A stretch of 23,887 nt of DNA from a virus, in IMG/VR virus record IMGVR_UViG_3300028559_001543, positions 1 to 23,887 of that record. One strand, given 5' to 3'. Each line of letters starts with the position of its first letter. Positions within the stretch are counted from its first letter, which is position 1. The translations under genes were made by a program, and so were the position numbers. Below are positions 10,729-21,982 of this stretch, in pieces. Below the pieces are notes generated by a model. The model did no database searches and had not been told where the DNA came from. It saw only the letters and a program-made list of their open reading frames with translations.

Positions 10729-13700
10729 ATGCGCTCTATCTTTGTTTTGCTCATTTTGGTAATGATAGGGTTGAACGGAAAAGGGCAAAGTGTAACAGCT
10801 TTGCCCGATTCTGTTTTATCCCAATGCTGTTTAGAAGTTACACTTCTTAATGGCAATGTCACCACAGTTGATTGGGTATTCATCCAGTACATCACCCGTG
10901 ACGGCACAGGCACCAAGCTATTTGTTGAGTACGCTCCAAACTTTGGCGGCATCCAGTGGGAGACTCAAATCAGGATTCAAGATGATTTTGATGATGTGCT
11001 TGAGCGATCCAAATTTATCGTTATCCCCTTTACGGTAGGTTCCACGGATTACGGCATAAATCGAAACTGGATAGCCAACATCGAAGAAAATACTACCACC
11101 GGAGGAACTTGGATTTATGGCCGATTTGGCACCCCTACAAAGCGCAAATTCAGCGCCGTTGAGGATTATGAAACCATGAAAAATCTTTTGTTAGCTTGTC
11201 GTCCACGGGCTATTTTGATAGCTGAAAACGGGTTATACACTGAGGGCGACACCGTGCGCATGGGTGGATTTTTGATCGAGCCAACAAGAATACAATTAGA
11301 GGGCTACCCAATTACTTTTATTGATACGATGGCAAACCAGAGCTTTGGAATAGGAGAAGGCAATGTATCTGGATATTTTGGAGATACAATTGGTTATTTT
11401 TCTCGACGCGTTGGCAAGTTTAGGCAAATGATTACCCAGGGAAATAGATACAACCAAATAATAATCAGGGACACTACAAATAGTCTTGGGGATTATGCAG
11501 AATTTTACCAAGGTCTATATACAGGAAATAAGCCCTATATGTTTTTGGATGCAACAAACAGTGAAGTTGATGGGAAGTTCTCAAGAGTTTCAATTGATTT
11601 TGACAGCGTTTATTTAGAAAATAGGCCCTACTTATCTTCTGTTGACGCGTACACTAGGTACTCTGTTGCCAAATCTGGTAAATCTTCAATTGGAGTAAGG
11701 GAAGGCGAACTCTTAATTACAGGGTCAGGGGTAGAACTTGGAGCTTATGGGTATGGCATCGGAAGTGGAGCAAGTGAATATTTATTTATGAAAACAAAAG
11801 CCGTTGACAACGGCACTGCCAGTGTTGGGCAATACCTCAAACTCTTAAATACAAGCACAGGCGAAGTAGATTTTGCCACCATAGACCTTTCGGCCTACCT
11901 CCCAATCGCCGATACCGCTGCCATGCTTGACCCCTACATTCAAGGTGCTGGAACTCTGAATTACTTACCCAAGTTCACAGCGGGGCGGGTGATTGGAAAT
12001 AGTAACCTTTTCGACAACAACACCTATGCCGGGGTTATTGCTATACCTTGGAAGTTTGGGGAATACACCACACCCGGACTCCCTACGGGGGCGACAGGGT
12101 ACACGGTGTACAATACGACCACTAACGGCCTTGCTTGGTATCAGGGTAGTAGGTGGGCTTATGGGCTTGAAAGTACAGCAAATAGGTTTACAGCGGGTAG
12201 TGTGATTTTTGCAGATGCAAACGGACAGGCGACACAAGACAACGCCAATTTGTTTTGGAATAACTCAAACAAGCGGCTAGGGATTGGCACTACTTCTCCA
12301 AGTCAGGCATTAGAGATTTATACATCAAACACGGGAAATATTGACCTTTTCAAAATTCAGACGGCAACAAGTAGTATTGCAAACATAAAATTTACAATGA
12401 ATAGTTTTGAGGGTACAATATCCTCGCATTTATTTAAACTGGCATCTACACAAGGCACAGCGCCTATTTTGTATTTAGCAAACAATGAAATAACCGCTAG
12501 ATTTACGACCTCAAGCGGCAGTAATAATATTAATCTTCGAGCAAATACAGTTATATTAGGGAATTTTGGGTTTTTCTTTACTAGCAATACAGAGCGAAGA
12601 CACTATGCCTTACAGCAAGATTTAAATTATTTGGGTGGGTTTGACGCTGGTATTAACTTGGCTACCTATGACCACAGGACGAATTCAACACTAAATAAAG
12701 GCGAGGTTCTGTTTAAGTTAGCGCCAAGCAAAGAGGTTTGGGTGGGCGATGGAGTTGTAGATAATAACTACAATCTGTATATCACTCAACCATCTTTGGG
12801 TTATGGATCAATTTCAACCACTTCTGGAATCGCAACAATAACAGGCACTGGAAGGAATACACTCTTTACAAAAGACTTTAACGTTGGGACTGCTATCGTA
12901 ATTAACGCAACAACATTTACTGTAACTGGAATAACAAATGACTACACAGCAACAGTAAGCCCCACGCCTGGATTTACGGGTACATATGCCTACACAATCA
13001 ACAATACGTCCCCAACTAGACTTGGCGTTTATAAAAATGGCGGCGTTGTTGTAAACGGAGCAACAGGCCAAACTAGGAACTTGCTAGATGTAAAAAATCA
13101 GTCAGGTGCTACATTCATGGAAGTAAATAAAGACGGGGATTTTACAGTTAAAAAATCAGCAAGCCCCGATTCTGTAACTCTAAATAAGGCGGGTGTGTTG
13201 ATAGATGCAAAAGGAACAAGCGGTTCTTTTGATTCTAAATTTGAAGTCTATGATTATGGGTATATTGACCAAACCCTTTCAATATCTACGCAAGACGACC
13301 CTAGATATAATTTTAATAGATCTCGGGGAACAATTGCAACCCCTACCGCTTTGCTAAAAGATGATAAAATCGGGGGTATTTATTTTAACGCCCACAATGG
13401 AAGTAGTTACCGAAAGGCTGGCTATATAGGCGCTATTATAGACTCTATATACAGTTCAGCAAGGCCGAGGGCAAGGCTAATTTTTGGTACATCTCAAAAT
13501 AATTCGCCAGAAACTTCTTCGTATTGGCGTTTTTTAATCGAGCAGCATAGGAATATTTCTGTTTTGGATCACGTTACAGGCGCAAACGTAGGTATTGGGT
13601 TTGGTTCAAATATAACTTTACTGGAAAGCATGGCAATCGAAGCTCGTTTCCATGTAAAGGGCACAGGCACCACCACAAGCAAAACCATGCTACTTGAAGA

Positions 13701-14214
13701 CAGCGGAGGTGCTGATATTCTTACCATAAGGGATAACAAGTTAATCCAGGCCCATGGATACGGCACCTCTGCCACCACAGCAGCAGCATTATCCAAAACC
13801 CTGACAAACTACGGCGTAGGATTCGCCACCGACGGCACGGTAACAAGCCGAGAAATCAAGCGGGATACCACGATTTACGTGGTAGATGCCGACTATAATT
13901 TCAGTACAGCACTGACAACCCCGCAAGTAGCCGCACGGTACAACCGGGTGATTTTCCTGATGACCACGACGGCAGCGGCGGGAAGCGACAGCGAATTGAC
14001 TTTGCACGCGCCTGACATTAATTTAATGCAATGTGAATATCTGGTACGATCCACAGATGAAGCAGGCGGATTCGCAAACGTTATTCGATTTGGTTCAAAC
14101 AATGCCGTGGACTCAACAAATGGCCTTGCATCAAGCTATTTCCCAGCAGCCGGCCAAGGTGTTGGAATACGGGCGGGGCTTCGCTCAGGGGTGTATAAAT
14201 ACTTCTACTATTAA
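10729..14214 (+). CDS. Secreted tail fibre-like / adhesin-like protein with signal peptide
   Basis: I choose ATG 10729 (1161 residues), because it begins a clear signal peptide: MRS, a run of Ile/Leu/Val, then G-K-G|Q at residues 17-20, obeying the Bacteroidetes Q-rule. The upstream part of the open frame overlaps the previous gene and is not needed. The body is Gly/Ser/Thr/Asn-rich and beta-rich. Residues about 515-530 carry R-L-G-I-G-T-T-S-P-S-Q-A-L-E-I, a hallmark of Bacteroidota phage fibres and fibre-chaperone proteins. Later segments (L-L-D-V-K-N-Q-S-G-A-T-F-M-E-V and M-L-L-E-D-S-G-G-A-D-I-L-T-I) are degenerate versions of the same block. The likely role is receptor binding or surface adhesion. 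An N-terminal export signal is odd for a virion fibre assembled in the cytoplasm. Confidence 0.75.
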   Translation: MRSIFVLLILVMIGLNGKGQSVTALPDSVLSQCCLEVTLLNGNVTTVDWVFIQYITRDGTGTKLFVEYAPNFGGIQWETQIRIQDDFDDVLERSKFIVIPFTVGSTDYGINRNWIANIEENTTTGGTWIYGRFGTPTKRKFSAVEDYETMKNLLLACRPRAILIAENGLYTEGDTVRMGGFLIEPTRIQLEGYPITFIDTMANQSFGIGEGNVSGYFGDTIGYFSRRVGKFRQMITQGNRYNQIIIRDTTNSLGDYAEFYQGLYTGNKPYMFLDATNSEVDGKFSRVSIDFDSVYLENRPYLSSVDAYTRYSVAKSGKSSIGVREGELLITGSGVELGAYGYGIGSGASEYLFMKTKAVDNGTASVGQYLKLLNTSTGEVDFATIDLSAYLPIADTAAMLDPYIQGAGTLNYLPKFTAGRVIGNSNLFDNNTYAGVIAIPWKFGEYTTPGLPTGATGYTVYNTTTNGLAWYQGSRWAYGLESTANRFTAGSVIFADANGQATQDNANLFWNNSNKRLGIGTTSPSQALEIYTSNTGNIDLFKIQTATSSIANIKFTMNSFEGTISSHLFKLASTQGTAPILYLANNEITARFTTSSGSNNINLRANTVILGNFGFFFTSNTERRHYALQQDLNYLGGFDAGINLATYDHRTNSTLNKGEVLFKLAPSKEVWVGDGVVDNNYNLYITQPSLGYGSISTTSGIATITGTGRNTLFTKDFNVGTAIVINATTFTVTGITNDYTATVSPTPGFTGTYAYTINNTSPTRLGVYKNGGVVVNGATGQTRNLLDVKNQSGATFMEVNKDGDFTVKKSASPDSVTLNKAGVLIDAKGTSGSFDSKFEVYDYGYIDQTLSISTQDDPRYNFNRSRGTIATPTALLKDDKIGGIYFNAHNGSSYRKAGYIGAIIDSIYSSARPRARLIFGTSQNNSPETSSYWRFLIEQHRNISVLDHVTGANVGIGFGSNITLLESMAIEARFHVKGTGTTTSKTMLLEDSGGADILTIRDNKLIQAHGYGTSATTAAALSKTLTNYGVGFATDGTVTSREIKRDTTIYVVDADYNFSTALTTPQVAARYNRVIFLMTTTAAAGSDSELTLHAPDINLMQCEYLVRSTDEAGGFANVIRFGSNNAVDSTNGLASSYFPAAGQGVGIRAGLRSGVYKYFYY

Positions 14215-14230: not shown

Positions 14231-14950
14231 ATGAAATTCCTAAAAGTGATCATTTTGGCATTATTGCCCGTCTTCGCATACGGCCAAGTCAGTTTTGTAA
14301 AAGATTCGATCTGGTTTTATACCGATCTAAACCAGTGCGACAGCGTTGTTTGGTGGGTTGGATACCAAGTCAAACTAAGGGGTAAAGTCGTCTCACTCGA
14401 TGCCAAGCCCGTGGGATGGGATGAAAAGAACCCGTGCGCAAACATTCCAGGAAAGGACACCGCAACGATGGTCAACTTTTACAAAAACACATTGGTAGTT
14501 GATCCAGGTCGGCAACTTGCAGAAATTGCGGCACGGCTCATTGCTCAAAACAGCTACGACAAAGAAGCCGAACGAATCAACACCGCAATCAAACGAGCAA
14601 CTGCAAAAGACTTTTTCCAAGAAGCTGAAAAGGAAGCGGCTGATTCGCTATTTGGAAACTACCGACTACGAACCAACGTAGACGGCACAGTTAAAACAGT
14701 GGATTGCCAAATCTTGCGAAGGCCAAACGGGCAAGTAGTGATAAGAACCGGAACGGGTCAAGCCATTCAAAACTACCCGCTAAAGTTTTGGGGTGATGCC
14801 AGAATTGAAGTTACCAACCTTCCAAAGACCGGGGACAAAACCACGATCTACAAAATCCAAGGCAACCGGGGTAGATGGGTAAGCTTTGACAGATCTTTGC
14901 AGGTGTTGAAGTCTGACAAATTCGCAATCGAAAATCTAGCCTTTAAATAA
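14231..14950 (+). CDS. Secreted protein of unknown function
   Basis: The start at ATG 14231 (239 residues) is chosen because it begins a textbook signal peptide (MKFLKVIILALLPVFAYG|Q, Q-rule site). The open frame extends further upstream but lies inside the fibre gene. The mature protein has a Trp/Asp-rich N-terminal part with a W-W-V-G-Y motif, then a helical charged segment at about residues 98-140. A beta-rich C-terminal part from about residue 150 has V-I-R-T-G-T-G and G-R-W-V-S-F segments. It follows the fibre gene by 16 bases and precedes the holin by 27. No enzyme motif was recognised. It may be a partner or anchor for the secreted fibre-like protein, or a periplasmic lysis factor (inference). 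Confidence 0.65.
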   Translation: MKFLKVIILALLPVFAYGQVSFVKDSIWFYTDLNQCDSVVWWVGYQVKLRGKVVSLDAKPVGWDEKNPCANIPGKDTATMVNFYKNTLVVDPGRQLAEIAARLIAQNSYDKEAERINTAIKRATAKDFFQEAEKEAADSLFGNYRLRTNVDGTVKTVDCQILRRPNGQVVIRTGTGQAIQNYPLKFWGDARIEVTNLPKTGDKTTIYKIQGNRGRWVSFDRSLQVLKSDKFAIENLAFK

Positions 14951-14977: not shown

Positions 14978-15454
14978 ATGAAATCTATGAGAATCAGTCT
15001 TGCAAAAATGTTTCTTGATATTGGGGATGTGTTACACTCCATGTTTTCTGGCTTATGGCCTGGGATTATTTGGGCGCTTACTTTTGTGTCTGGACTTATT
15101 GCCCCCGCATGGCCGCCATTTGCCGCCGTTTGCGTCCTTGTGGTGATCGATATCCGCACGGGCAGACAAGCAGCAAGGCATAGGGGCGAAGAAATGAACA
15201 GCAAAGCCATGCGGCGCTCAGTGGGTAAAATTGCATCGTACTTCTACCTGATGGCAGCAGCCTTTATTATGGATGAGATATTTCTCAAGGGGTTGCCAGT
15301 TGAAAAGCCGATTTTGTACCTCGCAAGCATCCTATGCGCAGCGGTTGAGTTTAAAAGCATCTCCGAGAATGTCCAAACCGTTACAGGCGTAAACCTTTGG
15401 AGTAAGGTCAAAGACCGGATTTTGCCCAACACATCAAAAAAATCTGACGAATGA
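14978..15454 (+). CDS. Phage holin (holin_4-like family)
   Basis: This 158-residue membrane protein has hydrophobic segments at about residues 26-45, 46-60, 86-103 and 110-125. The motif D-I-R-T-G-R-Q-A-A after the second segment, and E-F-K-S-I-S-E-N after the last, match the phi29/Cpl-type holin family (Phage_holin_4_1) common in Bacteroidota phages. A positively charged tail follows. Holins form the timed inner-membrane lesion that starts lysis. The gene is coupled by ATGA (15451-15454) to a lipoprotein gene and then to a secreted protease, forming a lysis-like block. No muramidase or amidase gene is found beside it within the window. Confidence 0.8.
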   Translation: MKSMRISLAKMFLDIGDVLHSMFSGLWPGIIWALTFVSGLIAPAWPPFAAVCVLVVIDIRTGRQAARHRGEEMNSKAMRRSVGKIASYFYLMAAAFIMDEIFLKGLPVEKPILYLASILCAAVEFKSISENVQTVTGVNLWSKVKDRILPNTSKKSDE

Positions 15455-16068
15455 AAAAAGTACTTATACTCTTGACGATTGCTTTGTACTTACTTTCTTG
15501 TTCTGTCTCAAGGATGGATAAGGATTTTAAAATTTTCGTTCATCCAAAGGGGTGGCATGCAAGCGATCCAACAGCGTTGCAATTTGGCAAATGGCCTGAA
15601 ATTTTTCAAATGCAAGTCAAGTTCGACAGCACTTGCAAATATTTATTCTACACATCTACCGGAGCGATTGCGGAAAATCAATACGACTATAATAAGGCTG
15701 GCGGCTGGTCATTTGATGAATTTTCAGCAAAAGAAAATTCGTGCATGATGGGGTGGAGGTATGGGATTGAGTCCAGAAAAATAGAGCTTACTTTTTACCA
15801 TCATTCCAAAGGCGTCGCGATACACCATACGGACCCGGTACACGCAGTAAATTTCAATCAGGTAGCAACCTATACAATGATACCCGATTACAGCACAGGC
15901 GAAATCTATGAAAGTATTGAAACGAATGGGGTGACGGTAGAAAACAGCTTTGACATGCCCGAAATCACAGAGCAAAAAGGCCGTATAGGCCGGGAAATAA
16001 ACTGCTGGTTTGGTGGTCAGGAAAAAGCACCGCATAAAATGTACATTTTTAAAAAGCGAATCAAATGA
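15451..16068 (+). CDS. Phage-encoded lipoprotein
   Basis: This 205-residue protein begins with a lipoprotein signal peptide whose lipobox is L-L-S-C with Cys17 as the lipidation site. The mature part is beta-rich and aromatic, with a His-rich middle (F-Y-H-H-S-K-G-V-A-I-H-H) at about residues 125-136. It overlaps the holin stop (ATGA 15451-15454) and the next start (ATGA 16065-16068), so the three genes are translated together. An outer-membrane lipoprotein beside a holin could be an outer spanin, but it is larger than typical spanins and not coiled coil, so another role such as surface modification or superinfection exclusion is also possible. The fold is not recognised. Confidence 0.7.
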   Translation: MKKVLILLTIALYLLSCSVSRMDKDFKIFVHPKGWHASDPTALQFGKWPEIFQMQVKFDSTCKYLFYTSTGAIAENQYDYNKAGGWSFDEFSAKENSCMMGWRYGIESRKIELTFYHHSKGVAIHHTDPVHAVNFNQVATYTMIPDYSTGEIYESIETNGVTVENSFDMPEITEQKGRIGREINCWFGGQEKAPHKMYIFKKRIK

Positions 16069-17867
16069 GCAAGTATTTAATGTTTTTGGCTTTATGGCCT
16101 TTTCTTGTTTTTGGACAAAGCGATAAAGAAACCCGAAAGGCGCTAGATCGTGAAGTCAAAGATTTCAAGGAGAATGCAAAAGACCCTGACTTTATCGGAG
16201 TGCTACCTGGAGAAAGTCCGGTCTTTGTACGCAATCTCGTTGTAAATCCCCAGGCTGCTCAGTCTTGGGGCGCTCAGTTTGTGGGCGGGGCCGCATACCG
16301 TGAAGCCATTTCCAAGGCAGCCAAACGCGAAATCTTTGTATCGGTGTTTGATACGGGCCTACCTGATCACAACGACCTCAAAGGCGTTACGCTGTTTGGA
16401 AAAAACTTTGTGAGTGGTGAAGGCGGTGGCTTGCTTGATGGTCACGGCCACGCGACGCACGTAGGCGGGACAATTGCCGGGAACCCTCAAGGCGGCTTAA
16501 TTGCCCCCGCTGCTGGACTTGTTGACGCTGGCAAGATCAAGATCAAGTTTTACAAAGTGCTTTCAAACGGGGGCAGTGGTTCCATTGTGGACATTTACAA
16601 CGCAGCCAAAGCCGATTTGGAAGATTGCCGCCGAAGAATCGAAGAAGGCGGTTTTTGCATTTGGAATTATTCCCTGGGTGGAGGAACCACTAGCTACGCT
16701 CCATTGAATCAAGTCTTTGACGAAGCCGCCGCACTTGGTATCATCGTGTTTTGCGCCAATGGCAATAGCTCAGGACGTGGCGTAAATTACCCTGGCAACT
16801 ACCCAAAAAACTACGCCATTGCGGCAGGTAGACAAACAGCGTCAGCAATTGAAAAGGATTCGTATTCGACTTGGGGGCCTGAAAGCTGGGCTATTGAACC
16901 AGGCACAAACATTCTTTCCACGCTCACCAATCAAACCTATGGCGCTTGGAGTGGTACAAGTATGGCAACGCCTCATGCTGTTTCAATAGCCGCTGTGGTG
17001 GCTTCTGTGAATCCAAATTGGAACGCACCCCAGGTTATTGCACACATGCGCACGAATGCCCAGGATTTACCGCCAACGGGGAGAGATGAAAACAACGGCT
17101 TTGGCTATCATCTATTTTCCAAACTTCTTGGATCAAGTCCACCACCACCCCCAATACCAACTTGCAAGGCACCCACAGCAACACAGGTCAGCGCAAAAAG
17201 TGTAAGCTCAAGCGGGGCCATCCTTAACACCACCGTAACGGCTGACAATTACCAATTCAGATACCGTATACTTAATACAGGCGTTTGGTTGGTCACGAGC
17301 TGGAAAGGCAACGACGTAGTGATTACCGATTTGAAACCTGGCACCGTGTACGAAATCCAATGTCAAGTTCGATGTGGTGCAGTTGAGTCCGCCTACTCTC
17401 CAAGTGTCGCATTTAAAACCCTGAATGCTCCGACCAACCCCGTAAAACCTTACTACGAATGGAAGTCATACGCAATGCCACCCGCTGATAATCTTTTCAT
17501 GTACTGGCAAAGCGAGGGACAGCAACAAAAGCAAACAACGAAGCTTTCAAACATCAGCATTCGAGTCTATACAAACGGCTATGAATGGAGTCAAGATGAA
17601 GTAATGAGAGTTGTCTATGGATATTTCAGCGCAAACCGGGGCTTTATGCTTCGCGTCAATGATGATAACGAAACAGCTGCGAGATGGGCTGCGCATTTCC
17701 TGCTCAACGAACTTAAATCCAAACTTTCTAAATACGGAATGCAATTTCAAATTGAGCGCATTTGTGGAGAAACCGGGGGCGGGTCAATTGGTGTGAGGTA
17801 TTGTGATATCCGCAATTTTGTTACACCACTTGCAAGTGAAGCCGAAGTAAAGACATTTGAGCGATGA
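16065..17867 (+). CDS. Secreted subtilisin-like serine protease (S8) with FnIII domain
   Basis: This 600-residue protein opens with a signal peptide ending F-G|Q (residue 18, Q-rule). The S8 catalytic motifs are all present: Asp96 in F-D-T-G, His129 in G-H-A-T-H-V-G-G, oxyanion Asn234 in A-N-G-N, and Ser299 in S-G-T-S-M-A-T-P-H. The peptidase domain spans about residues 85-355. A poly-Pro linker (359-365) leads to an FnIII-like domain (about 366-453) and an unrecognised C-terminal domain (about 460-590) with three Cys. No I9 inhibitor propeptide is evident in the short N-terminal region. It would act in the periplasm, outside the cell or on the virion surface. It is coupled by ATGA overlaps to the lipoprotein before and the small gene after. 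Confidence 0.9.
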   Translation: MSKYLMFLALWPFLVFGQSDKETRKALDREVKDFKENAKDPDFIGVLPGESPVFVRNLVVNPQAAQSWGAQFVGGAAYREAISKAAKREIFVSVFDTGLPDHNDLKGVTLFGKNFVSGEGGGLLDGHGHATHVGGTIAGNPQGGLIAPAAGLVDAGKIKIKFYKVLSNGGSGSIVDIYNAAKADLEDCRRRIEEGGFCIWNYSLGGGTTSYAPLNQVFDEAAALGIIVFCANGNSSGRGVNYPGNYPKNYAIAAGRQTASAIEKDSYSTWGPESWAIEPGTNILSTLTNQTYGAWSGTSMATPHAVSIAAVVASVNPNWNAPQVIAHMRTNAQDLPPTGRDENNGFGYHLFSKLLGSSPPPPPIPTCKAPTATQVSAKSVSSSGAILNTTVTADNYQFRYRILNTGVWLVTSWKGNDVVITDLKPGTVYEIQCQVRCGAVESAYSPSVAFKTLNAPTNPVKPYYEWKSYAMPPADNLFMYWQSEGQQQKQTTKLSNISIRVYTNGYEWSQDEVMRVVYGYFSANRGFMLRVNDDNETAARWAAHFLLNELKSKLSKYGMQFQIERICGETGGGSIGVRYCDIRNFVTPLASEAEVKTFER

Positions 17868-18118
17868 AAACATACGGGCCAACGCCTTATTGCATCGAAA
17901 ATCCGGTAAGAATTAGGGTTAATGGGGTTGAGGTGGGGGTAGGGGCTGCGATATGGGTTACACCTTCACCTCCTGCCCTACTCTACATAGTGCCAGAAGC
18001 AACACAGGAACAATACGAAATCCTTTATCACCGGGGCCACAAACAAAGAATCTATGAGTACGACAATCAGCAGGGGCGTAAAATTAAGACTGGCAAGTCC
18101 AATACCCGCAAGCCCTGA
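17864..18118 (+). CDS. Small protein of unknown function
   Basis: This 84-residue protein starts in the subtilase stop (ATGA 17864-17867). The N-terminal half is beta-like with Val/Gly-rich strands (I-R-V-N-G-V-E-V-G-V-G), and the tail is basic (G-R-K-I-K-T-G-K-S). It overlaps the portal gene start by 65 bases in another frame, a larger overlap than others here. It may be a small virion or connector protein by position. The long overlap leaves some doubt on its exact end or on the portal start, but the coupling to the upstream gene argues that it is real. Confidence 0.5.
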   Translation: MKTYGPTPYCIENPVRIRVNGVEVGVGAAIWVTPSPPALLYIVPEATQEQYEILYHRGHKQRIYEYDNQQGRKIKTGKSNTRKP

Positions 18119-19424
18119 CATTGAAGAGCTTAAAAAACAGTACAAAGAACTTGGAATTATTCCCTACTTTGGCAACGAACCCAGGGAAGGAACTTTGTTT
18201 TTGCAACTGATTCGTGAGATTTGCGGCCTTTCGCCTACGTTCAATTCCACGATGAACGCCAAAAATAAGTTCACGTTTGGAAGCCGAACCAAGATAGGCA
18301 GTAATACAAGGCCGGGACTGTACCAGGAAAACCAAGCCGAAACCCCACTGGCAACTCAAGAGGCGTATTCAGACCGTACCGAAGAATTAGGCCTACCTCT
18401 CAATCAAATCCTTTCCACCGCCGAAAATCTGAATCGCCACTACTGCGAAAGCGGTAACGCCTGGCTGATCATCAAACGGGCCACGGTTGCTGGTGTGACC
18501 AAATACAAGATGCACGCAGAGCATTACCTAAACTGTGCTTACCTGACCCCAAAGCCGGGCGAAGAAATGCGAAACTTTGCCATTGTGTCGCCATACATTA
18601 CCGACATCCAGAAAATGAGAGATACAGGTAAGTGGAAAATTCTGGAAGCTGTGCGCCCTGGCGATGCCCTGATTTGGAGCAAAAAGGACAATGGCGTTGA
18701 ATATGCCTTAGTACACATTATGGATGAAAGCGGCACAGAACCCAATAGCGTCTATGGCCGCAGCCGTCAATTATCCTGCCTCATGGCGATGTATGCAGAG
18801 TATTACCAGGAAACACTAAACGCCAAAGTCTCAAGCACCGATATTGTAACCAAATTGCTTATAGCAATGGAGGGGCCAAGCCCTGAGAACTACGACATGG
18901 AAGACTTTGAAAACGAGGAATTGTACGAAGTTGGAAGCACCGGAATAGGAGCCAAAAGAAAAGGTTTGTTTGAAAGGAACATGGATCGCATTCGGATGCT
19001 CACTACCAACGTAGGCAGCTTTGAAGAAACCAGCTCCATCTTTGGCATGGAATACCCGGCAGGGGCCAAGCCACCAACACCCATTAAATTGGATTTAAAC
19101 CGGGATGTGGCGTACAATACTTGGAGTACCGACCGTTGCAGCCGGGTTATTGCCTCAGTGAATGGGTATTTCTCCGACCTTTTGAACCTCACCAAAACCC
19201 CATCAGGAATTGGCGGGAACATGCTCAAGGATTTGTTTTTAATCATGCGCGCGGGAACCATTGCACCGGATCAGGCATTTTGGGAAACCGTGCTAAATGG
19301 CGTACTCAGCCAACTACCGGAATTAGAACAGGATTTGGGCTTAAAACTACTGGACAACATCGAGCAATTGGTACAATCACTCACCAACCAGGCACCCGCC
19401 GCAAACGTGACAATCGGCATATGA
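18054..19424 (+). CDS. Phage portal protein
   Basis: This 456-residue protein shows portal signatures. Residues about 128-141 (H-Y-C-E-S-G-N-A-W-L-I-I-K-R) match the 'G-N-A-y/w' strand before the clip region. A later N-S-V-Y-G-R-S-R (about 230) fits the 'G-x-S-x-L' helix seen in the HK97 portal family. A helical crown-like C-terminus is rich in Leu and Gln. Portals form the dodecameric ring at one capsid vertex through which DNA is packaged and ejected. The gene lies about 8 kb downstream of the capsid gene with fibre and lysis genes between, an unusual placement. Its stop overlaps the connector-like gene start by ATGA (19421-19424). ATG 18054 is the first in frame. Confidence 0.8.
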   Translation: MSTTISRGVKLRLASPIPASPDIEELKKQYKELGIIPYFGNEPREGTLFLQLIREICGLSPTFNSTMNAKNKFTFGSRTKIGSNTRPGLYQENQAETPLATQEAYSDRTEELGLPLNQILSTAENLNRHYCESGNAWLIIKRATVAGVTKYKMHAEHYLNCAYLTPKPGEEMRNFAIVSPYITDIQKMRDTGKWKILEAVRPGDALIWSKKDNGVEYALVHIMDESGTEPNSVYGRSRQLSCLMAMYAEYYQETLNAKVSSTDIVTKLLIAMEGPSPENYDMEDFENEELYEVGSTGIGAKRKGLFERNMDRIRMLTTNVGSFEETSSIFGMEYPAGAKPPTPIKLDLNRDVAYNTWSTDRCSRVIASVNGYFSDLLNLTKTPSGIGGNMLKDLFLIMRAGTIAPDQAFWETVLNGVLSQLPELEQDLGLKLLDNIEQLVQSLTNQAPAANVTIGI

Positions 19425-21281: not shown

Positions 21282-21956
21282 ATGATTTTTTCAAAGCAAA
21301 TCAAAGAGCTTAAAGACAAGTCTTGGCCCTTTTGGCTCACTATGTTGGCAAACCTTGGTATCAACACAACCAAGAACGCACTAGCAAAACGGCTACCGGA
21401 TGATTCACCAGAAGAAATTCTAACCGTGAACCTGGCTAGTTTGATGCTTTCGATTGTAAAATTTATGTCGGATGAAATCACCGACAACGCCAAACAAGTG
21501 CGTGAAGGTCTTTTGAAGTGGCTCAATGAGTTTATGACCCCGTTTTTGTTCAACCTGTTTCAACCAGCAGTAGACAAAATCAAGCAGGTGTACAACAGAG
21601 ACATGATCCAGTACCTCAAGGACACCACCGAAAAAATTTCCTTCTTGCTCACTGACGCGATTGCACCCAACGACGAACAAATTTCCGCCTACCTTGATTC
21701 AGAGTTCCGAAAGCCAGAAACCAAAGATTTGGTCATCAATCAATTTGCTGCTGGCAACCTGAAAAATTCCGGCCTCGACTCTGATTTGGTCGCGTTTTTG
21801 ACTGAAGCAATGGGGATTGGATGGGATGCGCTTTTGGGCAATTCGGCTAACGTGCTTTCTGTTATTACCGTTCAAGAACAGGACAATGTGAAGATTGTCA
21901 ACTTGACCATGAAGAACGGAATCACGGCAACGCTGACGCTCTCAAAAGCAGCATAA
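21282..21956 (+). CDS. Helical protein of unknown function
   Basis: This 224-residue protein is mostly helical. A Trp/Phe-rich N-terminal helix (S-W-P-F-W-L-T-M-L-A-N-L) is not long enough for a clear membrane segment. A charged middle (residues about 85-150) is followed by a short beta-like C-terminus (V-K-I-V-N-L-T-M-K-N-G-I-T-A-T-L-T-L). It lies 25 bases downstream of one terminator and is followed by another (21983-22018), so it is probably expressed as a single gene. The context of structural genes suggests a virion or assembly protein. No family was recognised. Confidence 0.6.
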   Translation: MIFSKQIKELKDKSWPFWLTMLANLGINTTKNALAKRLPDDSPEEILTVNLASLMLSIVKFMSDEITDNAKQVREGLLKWLNEFMTPFLFNLFQPAVDKIKQVYNRDMIQYLKDTTEKISFLLTDAIAPNDEQISAYLDSEFRKPETKDLVINQFAAGNLKNSGLDSDLVAFLTEAMGIGWDALLGNSANVLSVITVQEQDNVKIVNLTMKNGITATLTLSKAA

Positions 21957-21982
21957 GCCATTTGATTACTTTCGGTTCAACG

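Follow-up and report, generated by a model that had tools for sequence, protein, structure and literature searches.

What does a secreted subtilase do beside a holin in a phage genome? The gene that raises this question lies on the forward strand of a 23,887-base IMG/VR virus record (here called the window, meaning the whole stretch of DNA that was analysed), in which the phage genome is incomplete, the replication half lying outside it. Little is understood of how Bacteroidota phages lyse their hosts and disrupt the outer envelope, and accounts of phage lysis usually center on murein hydrolases. Our analysis favors a reading, to which we assign a probability of roughly 0.5, in which the product is an active exported subtilisin-type protease of the late lysis/release cassette of a tailed Bacteroidota phage that aids envelope failure and release. 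Since members of this conserved protease family are found repeatedly with holins or with an amidase, a proteolytic step in lysis or release is directly testable.

The window gene encodes an intact subtilase

The open reading frame at 16065-17867 on the forward strand starts with ATG and encodes a protein of 600 residues. Residues 88-347 (16326-17105) match the Pfam Peptidase_S8 family (PF00082) with an E value of 1.7e-32 and a score of 113 bits, compared with a cut-off of 21.8. The protein also matches PHROG_3677, annotated as 'protease' (E 1.4e-37), and its top PDB match is to the M-protease/Savinase subtilisins (E 1.1e-27). The S8 assignment of the original prediction is therefore borne out by Pfam, PHROG and PDB alike. 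Residues D96 (VFDTG), H129 (DGHGHATH), N234 (ANGNS), and S299 (GTSMATPH) align with the D/H/N/S positions of subtilisin, and the numbering first proposed, Asp96/His129/Asn234/Ser299, proved correct. The protein thus combines a domain above the curated cut-off with the D-H-S order and the oxyanion Asn of peptidase family S8, and the catalytic set is unbroken in every homolog whose sequence spans the motifs. Inactivity had been named as a finding that would count against the prediction; there is no sign of it.

Outside the catalytic domain, the protease differs from the subtilisins (MEROPS S8A/PF00082; M-protease, Savinase), with which it shares the domain itself, the D-H-S order, the oxyanion Asn, and Sec-type export. 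Identity to these enzymes is ~30%, and the gene lies in a phage operon. The N-terminal residues 1-18 (16065-16118; MSKYLMFLALWPFLVFGQ) resemble a signal peptide in a crude hydropathy scan, which was used in place of SignalP for all signal peptides reported here. This export-type N-terminus is kept in the homologs of L002, G782, G783, and G785, and is of the lipoprotein type in G784. Only ~70 residues lie ahead of the S8 domain, and conservation is poor over the first 40. No match to the Inhibitor_I9 propeptide was found in the window protease with Pfam at E 0.01, so that the layout of a classical subtilisin precursor is not seen.

The S8 domain is followed by a proline linker, a fibronectin-III-like beta sandwich (approximately residues 375-453, 17187-17423), and a C-terminal domain of ~145 residues (456-600, 17430-17864). 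The sandwich is suggested by a sub-threshold match to PF00041 (E 0.0026) and by modelled strands; in the alignment it is missing from the G784 and G785 homologs. Structure prediction had been proposed as a check; the AlphaFold2 model of the protease is too poor overall for a fold search (pLDDT 54.2), and the fn3-like strands are modelled mostly at 73-89. The C-terminal domain is private to this phage protease family. An HMM of it matches the window group, G782, G783, G784, and G785, a related domain is common to L131 and L074 of the sister clade described below, and relatives of the protease that share the domain are present in at least six further phage records. A search of 395 other host-order genomes did not detect it, and a PDB profile search gave no match. 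With Pfam and PHROG, the protease gave only the S8 and fn3-like matches and no peptidoglycan-hydrolase domain, so the protein itself does not qualify as an endolysin.

The protease is a conserved phage gene

Records L003, with 99.9% DNA identity over 15 kb, and L002 and L006 (protease 87%) are close relatives of the window phage. A Bacteroidota MAG (L016/G007) carries this phage as well, matching at 84% over the C-terminal half of the protease. IMG/VR searches with the MCP, the portal, and the lipoprotein returned nothing beyond close relatives of the same phage. Contig G002 (L004), considered as a relative with a different gene order, was rejected as an inverted chimera. In this 34 kb record (IMGVR_UViG_3300020017_000145), two copies of the phage left arm are joined in inverted orientation at ~16182; the breakpoint falls within the holin gene and an MCP gene.

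Between the window and L002, dN/dS is 0.045 in the S8 domain (residues 61-356) and 0.07 across the whole protease gene, compared with 0.048 for the portal and 0.073 for the MCP. The fibre gene is diverging, with 49% identity and dN/dS of 0.32. The protease is under strong purifying selection, and its S8 domain is on a par with the portal.

It is extremely unlikely that the gene is an ordinary chromosomal exoprotease, recently picked up by one phage and without a phage-specific function. S8 proteases are indeed common in Bacteroidia, some S8 match being present in 335 of 395 genomes, but no close chromosomal homolog was found, and the best match in 394 Bacteroidia genomes besides the phage-bearing MAG has only 32% identity (E 2e-18). 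A maximum-likelihood S8 tree of 62 sequences, 24 of them S8 domains from Bacteroidia chromosomes, unites the six family members in one clade (99/95) and keeps them apart from all 24. A recent chromosomal origin was rejected on these grounds, and the phage-gene reading survives the chromosomal-subtilase check. The private C-terminal domain of this supported clade and the purifying selection on the protease also argue against such a recent acquisition. We therefore regard it as well supported that the window encodes an intact, exported phage protease that is maintained by selection.

The exported block around the holin

The original prediction placed a holin and a lipoprotein beside the subtilase, and both are found directly upstream, on the same strand. 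The holin (14978-15454, 158 aa) matches PF05105 above the cut-off (E 1.7e-10) and the PHROG_199 holin family (E 7.5e-8), and the next gene (15451-16068) encodes a 205-aa lipoprotein-like protein with the lipobox-like motif LLSC. ATGA overlaps join holin and lipoprotein (15451-15454), lipoprotein and protease (16065-16068), and protease and an 84-aa reading frame (17864-18118, forward strand) that overlaps the subtilase stop (17864-17867), which suggests translational coupling from the holin to the gene after the protease. The PF05105 holin thus lies in the same predicted operon as the protease, linked to it by overlaps through the lipoprotein. No i-spanin partner was found for the lipoprotein, a PDB profile search with it gave no match, and its AlphaFold2 model is too poor for a fold search (pLDDT 49.8). 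Homologs of the lipoprotein adjoin the subtilase in L002 (75%), in G782/G783 (30%), and, without an obvious lipobox, in G785 (26%).

The hydropathy scan assigned export-type N-termini to 4 of the 21 window proteins, which form a single block around the holin. Besides the lipoprotein and the protease, these are a fibre-like protein of 1161 residues (10729-14214) and a 239-aa protein (14231-14950), both encoded on the forward strand. N-terminal homologs of the fibre-like protein are present in L002-L005, G782, and G783. Homologs of the 239-aa protein, which gave no match in a PDB profile search, precede the lysis slot in L002, L004, G782, and G783, and G784 has a 27% match. The portal-like gene (18054-19424) lies downstream of the lysis module and not beside the terminase, an unusual late-gene order; its assignment comes from reading and position, as Pfam and PHROGs gave no match.

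Distant phages carry the protease in the same module

A pattern scan of IMG/VR for GTxMATPH returned many viral S8 genes among the matches listed. At least four contigs encode a protease with the C-terminal domain, G782 (47,514 bp), G783 (47,596 bp), G785 (42,679 bp), and G784 (35,445 bp). Protease identity is 47-50% for G782/G783, 32-38% for G785, and 29-38% for G784. The G782 and G783 contigs are collinear but mutually rotated, and since each spans the ends of the other they are near-complete.

G782/G783 encode, one after the other, an exported fibre, an exported 242-aa protein, a lipoprotein, a holin, the protease, and a 224-aa protein. The holin (PHROG_2359, E 3.9e-9) is unrelated to that of the window and overlaps the protease start; it stands between lipoprotein and protease, compared with its place before the lipoprotein in the window. 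G785 has an exported fibre, an exported 248-aa protein, the lipoprotein homolog, the protease, and two small membrane proteins that gave no holin-family match. The protease is therefore part of the same exported module in three lineages, two of which have unrelated recognised holins. All three also retain the lipoprotein homolog, with 26-30% identity between lineages. The 35 kb G784 contig is arranged differently, with a lipoprotein-type protease homolog in an accessory region far from the fibre gene, which is itself followed by an NlpC/P60-like gene (a weak match under the cut-off, E 0.00079). The protease is hence not tied to the lysis slot everywhere, which argues against an obligate lysis role; the arrangement fits a protease that takes the lysis slot only in phages lacking the endolysin.

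The 224-aa gene that directly follows the protease in G782/G783 is located at 21282-21956 on the forward strand of the window (75% DNA identity to G782; phmmer 8.7e-120). DNA matches between the window and G782 are confined to 11251-12000 and 12127-12176 in the fibre gene, 16437-17098 in the protease, and 21282-21957 in the 224-aa gene. The pattern looks as if these genes had been exchanged together between otherwise unrelated phages.

Related viral subtilases adjoin an amidase

In the S8 tree, the family clade is sister (100/97) to a second clade that is entirely viral. The sister-clade proteases (L102, L084, L131) are signal-less, unlike the window protease, and in L084, L102, L106, L129, and L172 the neighbor is an amidase endolysin, 23 bp away, and not a holin. 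The amidase assignment comes from PDB matches (E 4.7e-20) and PF01510 (E 7.6e-21), and a GH19-type endolysin lies near the protease and amidase in L102 and L084. Many of these records are near-identical, so they represent few independent cases. Of 94 other viral S8 loci among the matches listed, eight have a lysis-type gene within 6 kb, as judged with a limited query set. The same amidase is present in six of the eight, and these six loci, which are outside the tree, probably belong to the sister clade. In L131 (1294-2214) and L077, the gene immediately before the signal-less protease encodes a membrane-anchored protein of 306 residues whose appearance suggested a murein enzyme but which matched no family. 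A glucosaminidase reading of the L131 protein was dropped as neither PF01832 nor PDB supported it.

The S8 proteases of Bacillus and Moorella phages (PHROG_3677; Goe3, SP-15, MTATph1) are likewise phage-encoded with intact motifs. They differ from the window family in having no C-terminal domain and in branching separately in the tree; no signal peptide is seen in Goe3, and in the two loci read the gene is not part of a lysis cassette. A literature search of a limited collection, which does not prove absence, returned no paper that describes a subtilase in the lysis cassette of a phage.

No conventional endolysin is recognised beside the protease

The absence of a conventional endolysin from the window had been noted from the sequence, and Pfam and PHROG agree for all window proteins scanned. 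Relatives extend the view by ~4.5 kb upstream, including the terminase, and ~2 kb further downstream, and no endolysin was read there either. Pfam gave no peptidoglycan hydrolase for the terminase-to-portal stretch of the window group, for the near-complete G782/G783 (47.5 kb), or for G785 (42.7 kb); 25 of 31 families were listed in one hydrolase-family search of the window group with G782/G783. Neither Amidase_2 nor Glucosaminidase was found in the window group, G782, G783, G784, or G785, with L102 as positive control for the amidase. The G782/G783 genomes encode a DUF5675 protein (E 1.7e-7) in their head region (L184:6358-6870), which is a candidate for the missing murein enzyme.

Divergent lysins escape Pfam, and a protease does not cleave murein glycans. 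An unrecognised murein hydrolase is for this reason still expected, in the module or elsewhere, and the replication half of the window phage may hold an endolysin. Absence by Pfam is also not rare, as Ingeline is likewise without a recognised endolysin (PMC8776804).

The gene order of other Bacteroidota phages indicates which slot the protease occupies. In Parabacteroides phage PD691P4, a homolog of the window holin is directly followed by an endolysin, and in Leef_1, TCUEAP2, and BKO1-3 a membrane protein of ~165 residues takes the place before the endolysin. These cassettes share the order of structural or fibre gene, holin or small membrane protein, and lysis enzyme. In the window, the lipoprotein and protease stand where these phages have the endolysin and its follower.

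A proposed role in lysis or release and its alternatives

The unrelated holins in two lineages, the endolysin slot, and the amidase-adjacent sister clade make lysis or release the best supported of the four roles first proposed; fibre processing, a virion depolymerase, and lysogenic conversion receive less support. Membership of the protease in a lysis/release cassette is likely, and the enzyme probably contributes to opening the cell envelope, or to clearing it, when the phage is released. The fibre, the exported 239-aa protein, the holin, the lipoprotein, and the protease would be produced late from one coupled operon. After crossing the inner membrane via Sec, the protease would work in the periplasm or on the cell surface and cut envelope or surface-layer proteins; together with the holin, this would make the envelope fail, so that progeny escape or come free of cell debris. 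In this account the late timing, the secretion, the envelope substrates, and the direct part in lysis are inferred. A bolder form of the proposal, that this phage group lyses without a classical endolysin, is unlikely; the exported protease and its partner lipoprotein, set off by interchangeable holins, would then dismantle the envelope in the endolysin's place.

The exported fibre and 239-aa protein are linked to the protease as closely as the holin is, and a signal peptide would let the protease leave the cytoplasm before the holin triggers, two points that argue against the lysis reading. The main rival, which we consider somewhat unlikely, is an exported adsorption or surface module in which the protease processes the fibre, or accompanies it on the virion or the cell surface, and breaks down matrix or host surface proteins for spread or access to new hosts. 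Because the window group, G782/G783, and G785 all keep the exported fibre and ~240-aa protein together with the protease, fibre processing or a virion depolymerase retains some plausibility, and the restriction of window-G782 DNA similarity to fibre, protease, and 224-aa gene is what a jointly exchanged module would give. The fn3-like and C-terminal domains could serve in binding. The flavophages Ingeline, Nekkels, and Molly encode exported or lipoprotein-type lyases and a peptidase for which matrix clearance was proposed, and the signal-peptide-bearing lyases of Ingeline and Nekkels were interpreted as matrix depolymerases (PMC8776804), although these exported enzymes are polysaccharide lyases or a zinc peptidase and the window enzyme is of family S8. 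A surface module, however, leaves the linkage to holins and, in the sister clade, to the amidase unexplained, Sec export is hard to square with cytoplasmic virion assembly, and in G784 the protease gene lies at a distance from that of the fibre. That last contig, with its integrase and its lipoprotein version of the protease in an accessory region, and G782, which encodes a large serine recombinase, would suit an exoprotease expressed from a prophage to alter the host surface, as in lysogenic conversion or superinfection exclusion. This is distinctly improbable and the weakest role for the window, suggested by one relative (G784), since the protease gene of the window group, G782, G783, and G785 lies on the same strand within the late structural/lysis region, coupled to a holin or adjacent to small membrane proteins, from where expression in a lysogen is not expected.

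The exported fibre-like proteins raise a separate question, namely why tail-fibre-like genes should have Sec signals. Such proteins recur in the window group, G782/G783, G784, G785, and Cellulophaga phage Ingeline, at loci that include 10729-14214 in the window, L185:497-3619, L194:14889-17867, L189:15165-17060, and L053 gp31-gp34.
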